A stretch of DNA of 64,000 nt. Origin: Marivivens donghaensis. GTDB taxonomy: Bacteria; Pseudomonadota; Alphaproteobacteria; Rhodobacterales; Rhodobacteraceae. The stretch covers positions 1-64,000 of the forward strand of contig NZ_JAATOP010000004.1 of assembly GCF_011806565.1 (NCBI RefSeq), in the 5' to 3' direction. This document shows positions 53,629-62,064 of the stretch, piece after piece (the first letter of the stretch is position 1; each line of letters begins with the position of its first letter). Position numbers and translations under genes: made by a program. A model generated the notes under the pieces. The model searched no databases, was not told where the DNA came from, and saw nothing but the letters and a program-made list of their open reading frames with translations.

Positions 53629-53810
53629 ATTTTGTCGCTACGTATCCCTTGCCGCGACCCAATGTCATGTGTGCAAAGTGAATCACATTTAGCGTAAAAA
53701 ATTTGCATCGTTCCAAAGTGCGCCTGGTAACCTGTCTTTTGTGCAATATTGCCGACTTTACCCAGTGAATCGCAGTTTTCGTGCATTTGAGCAAAGCATC
53801 GGGGGATACC

Positions 53811-54641
53811 TTGCCAAGTTATCGCGAGGCGCCATTGCCATCTTTTCTTCCGCGCGTGCGGATCGCAGCAATTATGAGTGTAATTGTCGGCTGGACCGCG
53901 CCGTTCAACACTATTTGGATCCAGCCTGTTGCGCTGCGGCTGTTGTTCTGGGCGTGCATCTGTTTCGGCGCGATCTTTGTTGTTCAGGGCATCCGCATGG
54001 TCGTTGTCCGCGTCGTGCCAGACTGGATGCGGTACAAGGTCGACATCCTGTCGATGTTCCTGATGACCTTCATCGCCGCACCCGCCATCTATTTCGGATT
54101 GAAAATTGTGGGCGCACCGGAGGCTTTGCGCCCAGATCTACTGGTCCTGTGGCTCGACATCTTTGTGGTTTGCGTAGCAATTGCGCTGATCCGCACCGTT
54201 GTTCTTCGCCAGCGTTGGCAGCCTGTGCCCGTGGTTACCATCGCGGCGAATGTGGCTCAGGAATTCGCAGCGCCGGTGAAAGTGCAGATGCTGGAGCGTC
54301 TTGAGGGTGTCGAGGATGCCAGCAAGATCATTCGCCTCAATAGCGACAACCACTACGTCGTTGTGACCATCGTGGGGGAGGAGCAGCAGCGCGTTCTTAT
54401 GCGCCTCGGCGATGCGGTGAAGGAAATGACGGGCGTCGACGGAATTCAGGTCCACCGTTCGCACTGGGTCGCCCGCGCCGCGATCGAGCGCACTGGCCGC
54501 GAGGATGCTCGCGATTACGTCTGGCTGACCGATGGCTCGCAGGTGCCTGTCTCCAAGAGCGGCAAGGAAAGCCTGCGCGAGGCGGGGATTACCTTCGACG
54601 CGCAGCCTTCAACGGCACAGCAAGGCATCGCGGCCCAGTAA
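53811..54641 (+). CDS. Membrane-anchored LytTR-family transcription regulator
   Basis: A 276-residue protein from TTG 53811, which has GGGGGATACC before it; GTG 53781 would add 10 residues. Four hydrophobic segments (about 17-35, 42-66, 78-100 and 110-132 from TTG) precede a cytoplasmic C-terminal LytTR DNA-binding domain (about 175-265), with IIRLNSDNHYVVVTIVG and GIQVHRSHWVARAAIE. No receiver domain is present. Ends with a 53-base convergent overlap with pdeM. Ligand and targets unknown. Confidence 0.85.
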   Translation: MPSYREAPLPSFLPRVRIAAIMSVIVGWTAPFNTIWIQPVALRLLFWACICFGAIFVVQGIRMVVVRVVPDWMRYKVDILSMFLMTFIAAPAIYFGLKIVGAPEALRPDLLVLWLDIFVVCVAIALIRTVVLRQRWQPVPVVTIAANVAQEFAAPVKVQMLERLEGVEDASKIIRLNSDNHYVVVTIVGEEQQRVLMRLGDAVKEMTGVDGIQVHRSHWVARAAIERTGREDARDYVWLTDGSQVPVSKSGKESLREAGITFDAQPSTAQQGIAAQ

Positions 54642-55299: not shown

Positions 55300-56325
55300 T
55301 CAGAACGGGCGAAGGTGGCAGGGGATGCGGATCGGATCGGCCTGCTTGGGCTTTTTGCCGATGAGGCCGAAAAGAGCCTCCAGCATCGCCGGCACGTCCT
55401 GTTCGACCATCCCGACATTGCCGGGAAGGTAGGAGCCGAAGGGGTCCCAGTCGAAACAGCCGTAGCGAACTTGGGCAGCCGCATCGCCAAGGCCACTGTG
55501 CCACCGCACCACACCTTCGAGCGAAATGGTGGAGTTCACGAAAATCCCCATCGGCCCGTCGGGGTGCAGATCGGCGAGCCGTCCGGCGGCGCTGTTGGCC
55601 GAATAGCCTGCGGCCATGACGTGATTGTCGGGGACTTCGATGCCGCGTTCGTTGTGAGCGCGGAAAAACCCGTCGAGACGCGCGGCGGTGTTGTTATCCG
55701 AAAGGCGACCACCGACGAAACGCAGCGGGCCTTCCCAACTCAGTTCGGCCTTGCAGCGATCCAGAATGAGGTTCGTAAGCGCATGGGCGGCGTTGCCGTT
55801 GTCCGAAATAACCGAGGGCGCATCGTGGCCGGGCAGGTCTAGGTTCAGCGACTGCACTCCGTTGGCCGCACATAGCGCGGTAATACGGTCGGGGTCGGTC
55901 GCACCGGTCGAGATCAGGCAATCCACTTGATAGGACAGCAGCTCGCGCGCGGCCTCGACTTCGAGGTCGGGGTCACGCTGCGTGCAGGTGATGACGGGAA
56001 ACATGTTGTTGGCGCGGGCGAGGGCTTCGAACTGTTCGGCAATCGCTCCGAAAAAGCGGTTGTCGTACTTGGGCATGATCATCCCGACGATGTTCGAGCG
56101 GTCCTTGCGCAGGGCGCTCGCCTGCATGTTCACCGCGTAGCCCTGTTCCTCGGCCACCTTGAGGATTCGTTGCGCAAGTTTCTCGCTGATTCGACGCTTC
56201 TTCCACGATCCGTTGATCACCGAACTGACCGCCGTGGGCGAAGTTTCGGCGATTTTCGCAAGATCGTAGATCGTTGGCCTCTTTGAAGAATTCGTCTCGT
56301 TCAACGCCTTACACGCCCTGTCCAA
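55300..56325 (-). CDS. LacI family regulator of the ribitol operon
   Basis: A regulator of about 341 residues from TTG 56325, or 334 from TTG 56304; no ATG or GTG is near the frame start. The helix-turn-helix is TIYDLAKIAETSPTAVSSVI, followed by NGSWKKRRISEKLAQRIL, and a periplasmic-binding-like sugar domain begins at about 75 (SNIVGMIMPKYDNRFFGAIA). It is divergent from the transporter and ribitol genes, with an operator-like palindrome directly upstream. Confidence 0.85.
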   Translation of the reverse strand: MDRACKALNETNSSKRPTIYDLAKIAETSPTAVSSVINGSWKKRRISEKLAQRILKVAEEQGYAVNMQASALRKDRSNIVGMIMPKYDNRFFGAIAEQFEALARANNMFPVITCTQRDPDLEVEAARELLSYQVDCLISTGATDPDRITALCAANGVQSLNLDLPGHDAPSVISDNGNAAHALTNLILDRCKAELSWEGPLRFVGGRLSDNNTAARLDGFFRAHNERGIEVPDNHVMAAGYSANSAAGRLADLHPDGPMGIFVNSTISLEGVVRWHSGLGDAAAQVRYGCFDWDPFGSYLPGNVGMVEQDVPAMLEALFGLIGKKPKQADPIRIPCHLRPF

Positions 56326-56339
56326 TGTAAGTTTTTACA
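56326..56339. promoter_or_regulatory. LacI-type operator of the ribitol operon
   Basis: TGTAAGTTTTTACA is a near-perfect palindrome (TGTAA/TTACA arms, 4-base centre), similar to LacI-family sites. It abuts the TTG of the regulator and lies 8 bases upstream of TTGACA (56348-56353), which with AATCAT after 18 bases could be the promoter of the forward operon. Confidence 0.55.
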
Positions 56340-56567
56340 ACCCCATGTTGACAGGATGCGCAAGCGGTGGCAATCATGCTCCATCGGTTGAGCAAATGTT
56401 GGAGCAAATGCACAATCGGTGTAGCAGCCCGAGGAGGGGCGAGGGAGGACATCGCTGATACCGGAAGTCGTGTGCGCGGCTTTCCTGTTGCGCGGCCCAC
56501 AGTTGTGGCGCCGGTCCCCCTTCGTTTGGCCGCAAAAACGGGCATCAAAAAACCGGAGGAGATTGGA

Positions 56568-57608
56568 ATGAAATTCCGTAAGACATCGCTGGCCGCAGCT
56601 TCGACCGTCGTCGCTGCACTTTTCACCACCGCCGCCGCGGCTGAGACCGTTGCGTTCCTGATGCCCGACCAGGCATCGACCCGCTATGAGCAGCACGACT
56701 ATCCCGGCTTTCAGGCCGCTATGGACGAGCTGTGCGCCGACTGCACCGTGATCTACCAGAACGCTAACGGCGACGTTGCTCTCCAGCAGCAGCAGTTCAA
56801 CTCGGTCATCGCGCAGGGCGCGAGCGTCATCGTCCTCGACCCCGTCGACTCGTCGGCTGCTGCGGCTTTGGTTCAGATCGCACACTCGCAGGACGTCAAA
56901 GTCGTGGCCTATGACCGCCCGATCCCGGACGTTCCGGCTGACTTCTACGTCTCGTTCGACAACGAAGGCATCGGCCGTGCTATCGCCCAGTCGCTCGTTG
57001 ACCACCTCGAAGACATGGGTGTCGAAGAAGGCGCCGGCGTTCTCCAGATCAACGGCTCGCCGACCGACGCAGCTGCCGGCCTGATCCGCGACGGTATCGA
57101 CTCGGCTCTGGACAACTCGATCTACGTGACCCTGTCCGAGTTCGACACTCCGGATTGGGCTCCGCCGAAGGCACAGGAATGGGCTGCTGGTCAGATCACC
57201 CGTTTCGGTGCTGACATCAAAGGCATCGTTGCTGCAAACGACGGCACCGGTGGCGGCGCGATCGCTGCTCTGAAAGCTGCCGGTGTTGACCCGCTTCCGC
57301 CGGTCACCGGTAACGACGCAACCATCGCTGCTCTTCAGCTGATCATCGCTGGCGACCAGTACAACACCATCTCGAAGCCGTCGGAAATCGTTGCCGAAGC
57401 TGCCGCACACGTTGCCATGCAGCTGATCAACGGTGAGACCCCTGAAGCGACCTCGACCCTGTACGACACGCCTTCGCAGCTGTTCGTTCCGGCCGTTGTC
57501 ACTCAGGAAAACATCAAGGCCGAAATCTTCGACAAGGGCATCCAGACTGCTGAAGAAGTCTGCACCGGCGAATACGCTGACGCCTGCGCCGAACTGGGTA
57601 TCGAGTAA
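56568..57608 (+). CDS. Sugar-alcohol ABC transporter substrate-binding protein
   Basis: A 346-residue binding protein of the ribose/xylose type (periplasmic-binding-protein 4 group). Signal peptide about 1-24 ends in TTAAAAE, followed by TVAFLMPDQASTRYEQHDYP. GGAGGAGATTGG precedes the ATG at 56568. Given the dehydrogenase and kinase downstream, ribitol is the likely ligand, by inference. First gene of the operon. Confidence 0.88.
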   Translation: MKFRKTSLAAASTVVAALFTTAAAAETVAFLMPDQASTRYEQHDYPGFQAAMDELCADCTVIYQNANGDVALQQQQFNSVIAQGASVIVLDPVDSSAAAALVQIAHSQDVKVVAYDRPIPDVPADFYVSFDNEGIGRAIAQSLVDHLEDMGVEEGAGVLQINGSPTDAAAGLIRDGIDSALDNSIYVTLSEFDTPDWAPPKAQEWAAGQITRFGADIKGIVAANDGTGGGAIAALKAAGVDPLPPVTGNDATIAALQLIIAGDQYNTISKPSEIVAEAAAHVAMQLINGETPEATSTLYDTPSQLFVPAVVTQENIKAEIFDKGIQTAEEVCTGEYADACAELGIE

Positions 57609-57668
57609 TCCAACGGCGGGGGCGGCGTTCAGTCGCCCCCAATGCCATTTTTAAGGGGAGGGGAGCCA

Positions 57669-58451
57669 ATGACGGCTGATAAAGGCGAGCTTATTCTCAA
57701 GCTTCGTGGAGTTTCGAAACAGTTCGGAGCGGTGACTGCGCTCAAGGACATCGAACTGGACGTACACGCCGGAGAGGTTGTTGCTCTGGTCGGTGACAAC
57801 GGCGCGGGCAAATCCACGCTGATCAAGGTTCTGGCGGGTGTTCACCAGCCGACCGAAGGCACGATCGAATGGTGCGGCAAGCCCGTGTCGCTCGACAGTC
57901 CGGGTACGGCGCTGGAGCTTGGCATCGCGACCGTATTCCAGGATCTCGCGCTCTGCGAAAACCTCGACGTTGTGTCGAACCTCTTCCTCGGTCATGAAAT
58001 CAACCCGTGGCAGCTGGACGAAGTGCAAATGGAGGTCCGTGCATGGACGCTTCTGCGCGAGCTGGCCGCCCGTATCCCGTCGGTCCGCGAACCCATCGCT
58101 TCGCTCTCGGGCGGTCAGCGCCAGACGGTCGCGATTGCGCGTTCTCTGCTGCTCGACCCCAAAATCATCATGCTCGACGAGCCGACCGCTGCGCTGGGTG
58201 TTGCCCAGACCGCCGAGGTTCTCAACCTCATCGAGCGCGTCCGTGACCGTGGTCACGGCGTCATCCTGATTTCGCACAACATGGAGGATGTTCGTGCGGT
58301 GGCCGACCGTATCGTCGTGCTGCGTCTGGGACAGAACAACGGTGTCTTCACCAACGAGACCTCCCATCAGGAACTGGTCGCCGCGATCACCGGCGCGTCC
58401 GAAAATTCCGTGTCACGCCGTATGGCCCGCAAACAGGAGGAAGCGGTATGA
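57669..58451 (+). CDS. Sugar-alcohol ABC transporter ATP-binding protein
   Basis: A 260-residue single ATPase domain: Walker A VGDNGAGKSTLIKV, signature LSGGQRQTVAIARS, Walker B IIMLDEPTAALG. Many sugar ATPases of this group (RbsA, XylG) have two fused domains of about 500 residues; this is the short FrcA-like form. ATG 57669 follows GGGGAGCCA. Overlaps the permease start by 4 bases. Confidence 0.92.
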   Translation: MTADKGELILKLRGVSKQFGAVTALKDIELDVHAGEVVALVGDNGAGKSTLIKVLAGVHQPTEGTIEWCGKPVSLDSPGTALELGIATVFQDLALCENLDVVSNLFLGHEINPWQLDEVQMEVRAWTLLRELAARIPSVREPIASLSGGQRQTVAIARSLLLDPKIIMLDEPTAALGVAQTAEVLNLIERVRDRGHGVILISHNMEDVRAVADRIVVLRLGQNNGVFTNETSHQELVAAITGASENSVSRRMARKQEEAV

Positions 58452-59686
58452 CCAATATTTCCGATCAACTCGACCGCGAAGACAGCCGCGTCCGCCACGA
58501 CCAAGGCATCGGCGGTGCCGTGCGTGCATTCCTTGACCGCGTGAAATCCGGCGACCTCGGTATGCTGCCGGTCTTCATCGGCCTTCTGCTGATTTCGGTC
58601 GTGTTCAGCTCCCTGAACCCCGTATTCTTGGCACCCAATAACCTTGTGAACCTGCTGTTCGATGCGGCCGCTATCGGTCTGATTTCGCTGGGTGTTGTCT
58701 GCGTTCTGCTGCTGGGCGAGATTGACCTGTCCATCGGTTCGATGAGCGGTCTGGCCTCTGCGCTGATCGGCGTGCTTTGGGTGAATGCAGGTCTTCCGTG
58801 GCCGTTCGCTGTTGTGCTTGCAGTGCTCGCCGGTGCCGCAGTCGGTCTGCTCTATGGCTTCCTGCGCAACAAGTTCGAGATGCCCTCGTTCGTTGCGACC
58901 CTCGCCGGTCTGCTCGCGCTGCTCGGCCTCCAGCTTTACCTCTTGGGTTCGACGGGTTCGATCAACCTGCCGTACACCTCGACCCTCGTGAAGTTCGGCC
59001 AGATCATGATCATGCCCGCTTGGCTGAGCTACATCTGCGCGCTGCTGCCGGGTGCGGTCATCGTCTACACCGGCATGAACACCAACAACCGTCGCCGCGC
59101 TGCCAACCTGTCGAGCCCGGGTATGTCGGTGGTCTTTGCGAAGGCGATCATCATCACCGTCGCGCTGGTCTTCTGCGTCTACTACCTCGAACTTGGCCGC
59201 GGTGTGCCGTGGATGTTCGCTGTCTTTACCGTCTTCGTGATCGCTCTCGAATACGCACTGCGCCGTACCAAATGGGGCCGCTCGATGTTCGCCGTCGGTG
59301 GTAACGCCGAAGCTGCCCGCCGCTCGGGTATCAACGTTCGCGGCATCCGTATGTCGGCCTTCATGATCTGTTCGGCCTTCGCCTCGCTCGGCGGTGTGTT
59401 TGCGGCCTCGCGTCTTGCCTCCGCCAGCCAGCAGGCCGGTACGGGTGACGTGAACCTCAACGCGATTGCTGCGGCTGTGATCGGTGGCACCTCGCTCTTC
59501 GGTGGTCGCGGTTCGGCTTGGTCCGCGCTACTCGGTGTGATCGTGATCCAGGCAATTTCGAACGGTCTGACCCTTCTGAACCTCAGCTCTTCGCTGCGCT
59601 ACATGATCACAGGTGCCGTTCTGGCCATCGCCGTGATCGTTGACTCTCTTGCTCGTCGCTCTCGCGCCAGCCACGGTCGTGCGTGA
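58448..59686 (+). CDS. Sugar-alcohol ABC transporter permease
   Basis: A 412-residue permease of the RbsC/XylH family with about ten to twelve hydrophobic segments. The conserved LLGEIDLSIGSMSGLASAL and GGTSLFGGRGSAWSALLG motifs are present. Overlaps the ATPase gene (ATGA) and is followed after 15 bases by the ribitol dehydrogenase. Confidence 0.92.
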   Translation: MTNISDQLDREDSRVRHDQGIGGAVRAFLDRVKSGDLGMLPVFIGLLLISVVFSSLNPVFLAPNNLVNLLFDAAAIGLISLGVVCVLLLGEIDLSIGSMSGLASALIGVLWVNAGLPWPFAVVLAVLAGAAVGLLYGFLRNKFEMPSFVATLAGLLALLGLQLYLLGSTGSINLPYTSTLVKFGQIMIMPAWLSYICALLPGAVIVYTGMNTNNRRRAANLSSPGMSVVFAKAIIITVALVFCVYYLELGRGVPWMFAVFTVFVIALEYALRRTKWGRSMFAVGGNAEAARRSGINVRGIRMSAFMICSAFASLGGVFAASRLASASQQAGTGDVNLNAIAAAVIGGTSLFGGRGSAWSALLGVIVIQAISNGLTLLNLSSSLRYMITGAVLAIAVIVDSLARRSRASHGRA

Positions 59687-59701
59687 TCGAAAGGACCAAT
59701 C

Positions 59702-60424
59702 ATGCTCATGAAAGATAAAACCGCCGCCATTACCGGAGCCGCCTCTGGCATCGGTCTGGCCTGTGCCAAGAAGCTGCTCGAAGAAGGTGCCAAGGTCGTT
59801 CTGATCGACCGCGATGCCGAAAAGCTCGAAAAGCTCTGCGGCGAGCTCGGCGAGAATGCCAAGCCGATGGTCCTCGATCTGTTCGACGGTGCTGCGGTGT
59901 CCGGCATGATGCCGAAGATCGAAGAACTGGTCGGCCCGCTCGATATCTTCCACGCCAACGCCGGTGCATACATCGGCGGGGCGGCGGCCGAGGGCGATCC
60001 CGACGCTTGGGACCGTATGCTGAACCTCAACATCAACGCGGCCTTCCGCTGTGTGAATGCGGTTCTGCCCAAGATGATCGAACGCAAAACTGGCGACGTG
60101 ATTTTCACGTCGTCGGTGGCGGGCGTCGTCCCCGTCGTGTGGGAGCCGATCTACACCGCATCGAAATTCGCGGTTCAGGCGTTCATGCACGCGACGCGCC
60201 GTCAGGTTTCCGAACACGGCATCCGTATGGGTGCCGTCCTCCCAGGGCCAGTCGTCACAGCACTGCTGGATGACTGGCCCAAAGCGAAAATGGACGAAGC
60301 TCTGGCCAACGGCTCGCTGATGCAGCCTGTCGAAGTGGCCGAAGCCGTTCTGTTCATGCTCAGCCGTCCGCGCAATGTGGTGATCCGTGACCTCGTGATC
60401 CTGCCCAACAGCGTCGACCTCTAA
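59702..60424 (+). CDS. rbtD: Ribitol 2-dehydrogenase (short-chain dehydrogenase)
   Basis: A 240-residue SDR. NAD site TGAASGIG at 11-18, NAG at 86-88, catalytic S137/S138, Y151 and K155. Long stretches such as [24 protein letters not shown] and [20 protein letters not shown] resemble the ribitol dehydrogenase of Klebsiella as I remember it, so conversion of ribitol to D-ribulose is the favoured reaction. AAGGA precedes the ATG at 59702; ATG 59708 is an alternative. Confidence 0.87.
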
Positions 60425-60444
60425 GGCCCGCGAAGGAGAAAACC

Positions 60445-62064
60445 ATGACTGGAGGAGAGGGCGGCTACGTCGTCGGTGTCGATGTCGGCACCGGTAGCGC
60501 ACGGGCCGGTATCTTTACGCTCGCGGGGGAAATGGTCGGCACCGACAAGTGCGCGATCACGCTCTACCGCGATCCGGGTTCGATCGTCGAACAGTCGAGC
60601 GACGAAATCTGGCAGGCCGTCGTCAAATCGGTGCGCGGCGCAGTCGCAGCCGCCAAGGTCGATCCGGCGGACATCAAGGGCATCGGTTTCGACGCTACCT
60701 GTTCGCTGGTGGTGCTGGGCGAGAACGGTCAGTCCATGCCCGTCGGTGATCCGGCCAAACCCGAGCGCAACATCATCGTCTGGATGGACCACCGCGCGCT
60801 CGAACAGGCCGAACGGATCAACGCCAAGGGACACCGCGTTCTCGACTACGTCGGGGGACGCATCTCGCCCGAGATGGAAACGCCCAAACTGCTGTGGCTC
60901 AAGGAAAATCGTCCCGAGATCTTCGCCACCGCCTGGCAGTTCATGGACCTCACGGACTTCCTGACATGGCGGGCCACGGGGGACGTGTCGCGGTCTGTCT
61001 GCACGGTGACGTGCAAGTGGACCTACATGGCGCACGAGGATGCGTGGGATGCGAGCTACTTCAACTCTGTCGGTTTGGAAGAACTGACCGAGGACGGGTT
61101 CAAGCGTATCGGCGACACCGTTGTGCCTGCCGGTCAGGCACTGGGGCAGGGGCTTGATGCGCGCGCTGCCGAAGAGCTGGGGTTAGTCGTTGGTACGCCC
61201 GTTGGCGCAGGACTGATCGACGCCCATGCGGGCGGGATCGGCACCGTTGGCGCGGCCGGTGGTGGCGGGGCAGAGGCGAACCTCGCCTATGTGTTCGGCA
61301 CCTCGTCCTGCACCATGACCTCGACCGCAGAGCCTGTCTTCGTGCCGGGTGTCTGGGGGCCGTACTATTCGGCGATGGTGCCGGGTCTGTGGCTGAACGA
61401 AGGTGGCCAGTCCGCTGCGGGCGCTGCCATTGATCATCTGCTGGAGCATCATCCCGCGACCGCCGAAGCGCGGGAACTGGCGGCTGCTGACGGCAAGTCC
61501 TTGCCCGAGTGGTTGGCGGACCGCGCGGCCGCATCGCTTAAATCGGGTGGTCATGCCGCCGACCTCGCAAGCGGTCTGCATGTGGTGCCCGAGTTCCTCG
61601 GTAACCGTGCGCCCTATGCCGATCCGCATACCCGTGCGGTGATCGCAGGCCTCGGAATGGAGCGGGACGTGGATAGCCTCGTTTCCCTCTATATCGCGGG
61701 TCTTTGCGGTATCGGTTACGGCCTTCGCCAGATCGTCGAAGCGCAGGATCGCGCTGGTGCAAGCATCGACAGCATCGTCATCAGTGGCGGCGCAGGTCGG
61801 AGCGAGATGATCCGCCAACTCCTCGCCGATGCAACGGGTAAGGAAATTGCGGTGCCTGCTGTGGACGAACCTGTTCTCCTCGGTTCGGCTATCCTCGGCG
61901 CTGTGGCGGCAGGCATTCATGCGGACATTCCCTCGGCGATGACCGCGATGTCGCATTTCGCCAATCGCTATGCCGCCGAGGCAGAGGCGCGCGAAGTGCA
62001 CGAGAGCCGTTTCCGCACGTTCGAGCAGTTGCAAGCTGTTGCCCGCGCGGCGGCTATTCGTTGA
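60445..62064 (+). CDS. FGGY-family pentulose kinase, probably D-ribulokinase
   Basis: A 539-residue sugar kinase. The N-terminal VVGVDVGTGSARAGIF is the ATP-phosphate site, VWMDHRALEQAERIN and the glycine-rich SGGAGRSEMIRQLLADATG belong to the FGGY fold, and the size fits the pentulose kinase branch. It would phosphorylate D-ribulose made by the dehydrogenase upstream. It lies 20 bases after rbtD and ends the operon, followed by a hairpin repeat. Confidence 0.87.
   Translation: MTGGEGGYVVGVDVGTGSARAGIFTLAGEMVGTDKCAITLYRDPGSIVEQSSDEIWQAVVKSVRGAVAAAKVDPADIKGIGFDATCSLVVLGENGQSMPVGDPAKPERNIIVWMDHRALEQAERINAKGHRVLDYVGGRISPEMETPKLLWLKENRPEIFATAWQFMDLTDFLTWRATGDVSRSVCTVTCKWTYMAHEDAWDASYFNSVGLEELTEDGFKRIGDTVVPAGQALGQGLDARAAEELGLVVGTPVGAGLIDAHAGGIGTVGAAGGGGAEANLAYVFGTSSCTMTSTAEPVFVPGVWGPYYSAMVPGLWLNEGGQSAAGAAIDHLLEHHPATAEARELAAADGKSLPEWLADRAAASLKSGGHAADLASGLHVVPEFLGNRAPYADPHTRAVIAGLGMERDVDSLVSLYIAGLCGIGYGLRQIVEAQDRAGASIDSIVISGGAGRSEMIRQLLADATGKEIAVPAVDEPVLLGSAILGAVAAGIHADIPSAMTAMSHFANRYAAEAEAREVHESRFRTFEQLQAVARAAAIR

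Follow-up and report, generated by a model that had tools for sequence, protein, structure and literature searches.

A Probable Ribitol Utilisation Operon with a CUT2-Type ABC Importer in Marivivens donghaensis

In the rbt operon of Klebsiella aerogenes and Escherichia coli (LR134127.1, CP137936.1), the gene of a LacI-type regulator, RbtR, is divergent from rbtD and rbtK, and an MFS permease gene lies downstream of the kinase; the K. aerogenes record annotates these genes as ribitol operon repressor, ribitol 2-dehydrogenase, D-ribulokinase and MFS transporter. An ABC route for the import of ribitol (adonitol) is described for MptABCDE of Sinorhizobium meliloti (PMC10433430, PMC3599248), whose genes lie in the erythritol locus and are considered here with lalA-rbtABC and eryA; the importer is common to erythritol, ribitol and L-arabitol, and the erythritol kinase EryA serves for adonitol as well. 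On pSymB of the same species an RbtR has been named together with ribitol transport and metabolism (PMC4560400), and ribitol is reported as a LacI-family effector (PMC4052901). Sphingomonas sp. PAMC 26621 carries an ABC-linked ribitol dehydrogenase/ribulokinase operon, whose dehydrogenase, SpRDH, belongs to the medium-chain family and is 15-17% identical to short-chain ribitol dehydrogenases; a table in the same article includes a ribitol dehydrogenase of 25 kDa that was purified from Rhodobacter sphaeroides (PMC7343156). In Citrobacter rodentium, the Rbl system joins an ABC importer specific for D-ribulose to a D-ribulokinase; its named genes include an isomerase and lack a polyol dehydrogenase (PMC12307932).

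Here, we analyse a locus near the end of a 64,000-nucleotide stretch of Marivivens donghaensis DNA (hereafter the window), which is very probably a ribitol utilisation operon. It has in common with the enterobacterial operon the divergent RbtR-type regulator, the operator and the enzyme pair, whereas its transporter genes are of the CUT2 ABC class and lie upstream of the dehydrogenase; because ABC genes replace the MFS gene, we file it as a transporter-swapped relative and not as the enterobacterial operon itself. With S. meliloti it would share ABC import of ribitol in an alphaproteobacterium, although there the importer serves several polyols; unlike SpRDH, its dehydrogenase is a short-chain enzyme, and unlike Rbl, it carries a polyol dehydrogenase.

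Gene Content, Conservation and Enzymes of the Locus

Six genes, all with intact open reading frames, occupy positions 55300-62064, a minus-strand LacI-family gene being divergent from five plus-strand genes. The features of the locus are the following:

55300..56325, minus strand, RbtR-like LacI-family regulator, start probably TTG at 56304 (profile matches and identity)
56348..56377, plus strand, sigma-70-like promoter, TTGACA, 18 bp, AATCAT (promoter scan)
56377..56394, no strand assigned, candidate operator O1, TGCTCCATCGGTTGAGCA (motif search)
56409..56426, no strand assigned, candidate operator O2, with 3 mismatches, 32 bp from O1 (motif search)
56568..57608, plus strand, XylF-like periplasmic binding protein, CUT2 (profile and structure-relative matches, alignment)
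57615..57653, plus strand, strong hairpin with a short T run in the gap between the binding-protein and ATPase genes (fold without shuffle control)
57669..58451, plus strand, single-domain ABC ATPase, 260 aa (profile matches)
58448..59686, plus strand, CUT2 permease (profile matches)
59702..60424, plus strand, RbtD-like ribitol 2-dehydrogenase, SDR (identity to RbtD, characteristic stretches)
60445..62064, plus strand, RbtK-like D-ribulokinase, FGGY (TIGR01315, identity, motif)

The gene order is the one read by the first-pass annotation, which had placed a binding protein, a short single-domain ATPase and a permease before the dehydrogenase and an FGGY kinase last. The start of the binding protein is the ATG at 56568, after GGAGGAG, a longer GTG frame from 56367 being mechanical only; for the regulator there are two start candidates, at 56304 and 56325 and each a TTG, from the second of which the E. 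coli homologue aligns. The flanking genes, PdeM-like (minus strand) and TadA-like, are unrelated to the operon, and nothing stands out in the base composition of 50-64 kb. In G117, the sole genome of the same genus examined, the two flanking genes have their homologues on separate contigs, so that it offers no empty site for comparison, and the PdeM homologue (G117:C5:386127-386795) has an in-frame TAG inside the matched stretch. Elsewhere in the window, the C-terminal part of the frame at 53781-54641 resembles, by eye, a DNA-binding domain of LytTR type and is preceded by membrane-like segments. The hairpin at 57615-57653 is absent from the terminator-scan list; the corresponding gaps of nine orthologs, also folded without shuffle control, give strong stems of other sequence.

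Eighty loci were fetched by similarity to the dehydrogenase, and in 75 of them the five genes keep the same order and strand; of the others, L009 and L021 end at a contig edge, and L028, L057 and L068 have CUT1-type parts. The arrangement is thus common among the fetched loci of Rhodobacterales and Rhizobiales, and the operon is a widely conserved and fairly ordinary alphaproteobacterial type, not a new kind of system. The pairing of an RbtD-like enzyme with an ABC importer had been singled out at first in contrast to the MFS transporter of Klebsiella: the contrast stands, since K. aerogenes does have an MFS gene 3' of the kinase, but the implied novelty is slighter than it seems, given how common the arrangement is and that ABC-linked ribitol systems have been published (PMC10433430, PMC3599248, PMC7343156). 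Since ABC uptake of ribitol, an ABC-linked dehydrogenase/ribulokinase operon and the RbtR of S. meliloti were already described, what is new is modest: neither the six-gene operon nor an operator shared with Klebsiella was found in the largely open-access literature searched by title and abstract. The analysis does assign a function to a cluster that goes by generic names in the annotated plasmid records examined (SDR family oxidoreductase, FGGY-family carbohydrate kinase, sugar ABC transporter).

The dehydrogenase, judged by eye in the first-pass annotation to be close to enterobacterial RbtD, shares 73% identity over 238 aa with its K. aerogenes counterpart encoded on plasmid LR134127.1, and its adh_short domain match places it in the short-chain family; over the K. 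aerogenes and E. coli operons together, identity to the window proteins is 73-75% for the dehydrogenase and 62-63% for the kinase. Among solved structures, 9x6o, a 'ribitol 2-dehydrogenase', shares 94% identity with K. aerogenes RbtD and 74%, over the aligned fragment, with the window enzyme. Moreover, two stretches of 26 and 15 protein letters are common to the window enzyme and RbtD, while 5jo9, a third solved relative, differs there. By identity and by these stretches, the enzyme is predicted to be an RbtD-type ribitol 2-dehydrogenase. The kinase scores 699.7 bits against the pentulose kinase model TIGR01315 (cut-off 408.7), being the one match above the cut-off in the genome, and is 63% identical over 532 aa to the K. 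aerogenes D-ribulokinase, so that by score and identity it would be a D-ribulokinase of the FGGY family. The motif TCSLV, which we take to be a D-ribulokinase signature, is found in 80/80 kinases (the window and 79 loci). A protein named ribitol dehydrogenase, RLV_2389, appears in the pea-versus-lentil differential protein profiles of endosymbiotic cells of Rhizobium leguminosarum (PMC7950203).

Regulator and Shared Operator

The regulator is 53% identical over 337 aa to the complete LacI protein adjoining the E. coli ribitol locus and, over 289 aa, 51% identical to the protein annotated as ribitol repressor in K. aerogenes. The latter, as annotated (L089, 4611-5650), is without its DNA-binding part, which matches as an adjacent separate piece. 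The operator motif was derived from the regulator-to-binding-protein regions of 75 fetched loci and the window, two enterobacterial regions being also included in the word count. These regions have in common an 18-bp near-palindrome, TGCTYMATCGRTTGAGCA, which lies 5' of the binding-protein gene and, in the enterobacteria, 5' of rbtD, in two copies 29 bp apart in K. aerogenes and in one copy in E. coli. The own LacI regulator and candidate operator proposed by the first-pass annotation, which gave no coordinates for the latter, can now be located: the sites are those at 56377-56394 and 56409-56426, and the four strand matches of the window compare with a mean of 0.29 expected, four being reached in 0/100 shuffles.

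With no more than 2 mismatches, the site is present in 78/78 regulator-promoter regions, those of K. aerogenes and E. coli among them, and in none of 20 rounds of dinucleotide shuffles, a count that is partly circular because the motif was read from the regions in which it was counted. A better test is therefore offered by loci with and without an RbtR homologue, for which 16 other or enterobacterial loci were used, L098 being left out as its contig ends before the promoter. The operator is present in 4/4 loci with an RbtR homologue (L089 and L091, which belong to the 78 as well, and L105 and L107) and absent in 11/11 testable loci that have the same enzymes and no close RbtR homologue. Distant partial LacI matches (26-36%) occur in five of these 11 operator-less loci, so that the absence of RbtR means here that of a close homologue within the fetched stretch. 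Close homology, divergent placement and an operator common to the enterobacterial ribitol loci all point to the regulator being an RbtR, and the operator may be used for calling RbtR regulons. When a genome-wide search was run with the pattern TGCTYCATCGRTTGAGCA, three extra matches with 3 mismatches were obtained against one forward and no reverse match for the reversed control, and we claim none of them.

When up to 4 mismatches are allowed, 75/78 regions have a second site, at a spacing of 22 bp in 70, 32 bp in three (the window and the Salipiger loci L002 and L004), 29 bp in one and 23 bp in one; E. coli, L054 and L055 have a single site. The 22- and 32-bp spacings differ by one turn of the helix, which would be expected if two repressor dimers sat on one face of the DNA. 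O1 begins on the last base of the sigma-70-like promoter, a feature not above chance by itself (one promoter-like site found, 1.3 in shuffles); this overlap is naturally read as repression by blocking.

The Importer and Its Probable Ligand

The domains of the three transporter proteins (Peripla_BP_4 in the binding protein, BPD_transp_2 in the permease and an ABC ATPase) give the composition of a CUT2 importer, and their best matches are to the XylF, YtfR and GguB models, yet under the curated cut-offs of those models. The ATPase, of 260 aa, has one nucleotide-binding domain, its alignment covering the first half of the ~500-residue CUT2 ATPase models; it is thus not a fused double-domain protein, and the ATPases of the 75 complete loci measure about 260-271 aa. 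The double-domain form is usual for CUT2 ATPases but not universal, FrcA of S. meliloti being a single-domain case. The single domain lowers the claim to a typical CUT2 form, not that to function. The closest solved relative of the binding protein is the D-xylose-binding protein XylF (3m9w), which has GGSPVDNNAKLFRAG and SGQDAD where the window protein has NGSPTDAAAGLIRDG and TGNDAT; from XylF, we take these positions to line the ligand site. In 76 binding proteins, that of the window included, both motifs of the window protein are invariant (99% or more). No match to an RbtT-like MFS protein was obtained in the genome, in a search run without a positive control.

Among 248 genomes of the family, the dehydrogenase (at least 60% identity) is present in 19 and the binding protein in 13, the window's own genome included. 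In 13/13 of the latter a dehydrogenase of at least 68% identity lies ~3 kb from the binding protein, and the binding protein without the dehydrogenase occurs in 0 of 248. Five of the six genomes with the dehydrogenase and no binding protein have CUT1-type ABC genes nearby, and in the sixth (G212, L098) a cut contig keeps the permease. The 13/13 co-occurrence ties the importer to the ribitol enzymes and supports, although it does not prove, ribitol as the ligand.

Sequence is a poor guide to the ligands of CUT2 binding proteins, and the importer might mainly take up D-ribulose, or another pentose or pentulose, the kinase acting on imported D-ribulose and the dehydrogenase working in reverse or on ribitol that enters otherwise, with ribitol a secondary substrate. 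The kinship of the binding protein with XylF, of a family of sugar binders, would suit such an importer, as would the precedent of C. rodentium Rbl, but Rbl carries an isomerase where the window operon has its polyol dehydrogenase (PMC12307932). A pure D-ribulose system would have no need of RbtD, which accompanies the binding protein in the 13 family genomes and in the 75 complete loci, and the invariant motifs of the 76 binding proteins differ from those of XylF; we consider this explanation improbable. Still less likely, in our judgement, is that an RbtD-like enzyme of shifted specificity serves another polyol, such as xylitol, D-arabitol or D-sorbitol. It is true that 5jo9, whose database name is ribitol 2-dehydrogenase, is presumably a D-sorbitol dehydrogenase. 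Promiscuity is also described for alditol dehydrogenases of the same family (PMC12193009). However, in the compared stretches the window enzyme follows RbtD and not 5jo9, the operator is that of ribitol loci, and the neighbouring kinase, a D-ribulokinase by identity, would misfit the products of xylitol and D-arabitol (D-xylulose) and of sorbitol (fructose).

The ribitol reading is thus supported by three matched parts (regulator, dehydrogenase and kinase) and the common operator, and is firmer than the first-pass annotation could know. Its basis lies in the gene identities, in synteny and in the conservation of the operator and its link to RbtR, from which we infer the ligand of the importer, the direction of regulation, the inducer and a growth phenotype. 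In the proposed mechanism, the binding protein would catch ribitol, rather than for example D-ribulose, in the periplasm, and the CUT2 transporter, with one permease gene and one single-domain ATPase gene whose products presumably each form a homodimer, would import it unmodified. RbtD would oxidise ribitol with NAD+ to D-ribulose, which RbtK would convert to D-ribulose 5-phosphate for entry into the pentose phosphate pathway. RbtR, bound to two operators, one at the promoter and one a little downstream of it, would block transcription until an inducer frees it from them. In Klebsiella the inducer is D-ribulose, and it is probably the same here.

Proposed Exchange of Transporters around the Enzyme Pair

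The RbtD/RbtK-like pair is seen with MFS genes, with CUT2 genes, as here, and with CUT1-type genes. In a tree of concatenated proteins from 28 chosen loci and the window, CUT1 and CUT2 loci interleave, and mixed sister pairs are formed by L090 and L063 (support 1.0), L028 and L005 (0.999) and L093 and L010 (only 0.356). As the loci were chosen, the rooting was by midpoint and many nodes are weak, the order and the number of swaps are not claimed. We nevertheless favour, with some reserve, the view that RbtR, its operator, RbtD and RbtK form an old plug-in module, whose switch was kept across Alpha- and Gammaproteobacteria while the means of uptake was replaced on several occasions, enterics having MFS, other rhizobia and Rhodobacterales CUT1 and the present locus CUT2, and that the window importer is a pentitol-specific CUT2 system derived from an XylF-like pentose binder. 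This would be a tidy case of a catabolic core whose enzymes stay, as does the switch in many loci, while the pump changes. Such a regulator and operator shared by Alpha- and Gammaproteobacteria, around one enzyme pair with CUT2, CUT1 and MFS transporters, were not found in the literature searched.

The same CUT2 importer and enzymes also occur in Caballeronia (L104) and Roseibium (L106) in stretches where the operator and a close RbtR are absent, L106 having only a distant LacI gene (27%) upstream. On plasmid pRL9 of Rhizobium johnstonii 3841 (L090, 2134-9412), the RbtD-like (77%) and RbtK-like (65%) pair is like that of the window, but it follows a CUT1-type ABC importer, a glycerophosphodiester phosphodiesterase and an HAD hydrolase, with a sugar-binding regulator that is not RbtR and no operator; this gene set suggests the uptake and cleavage of a ribitol-phosphate-type compound.
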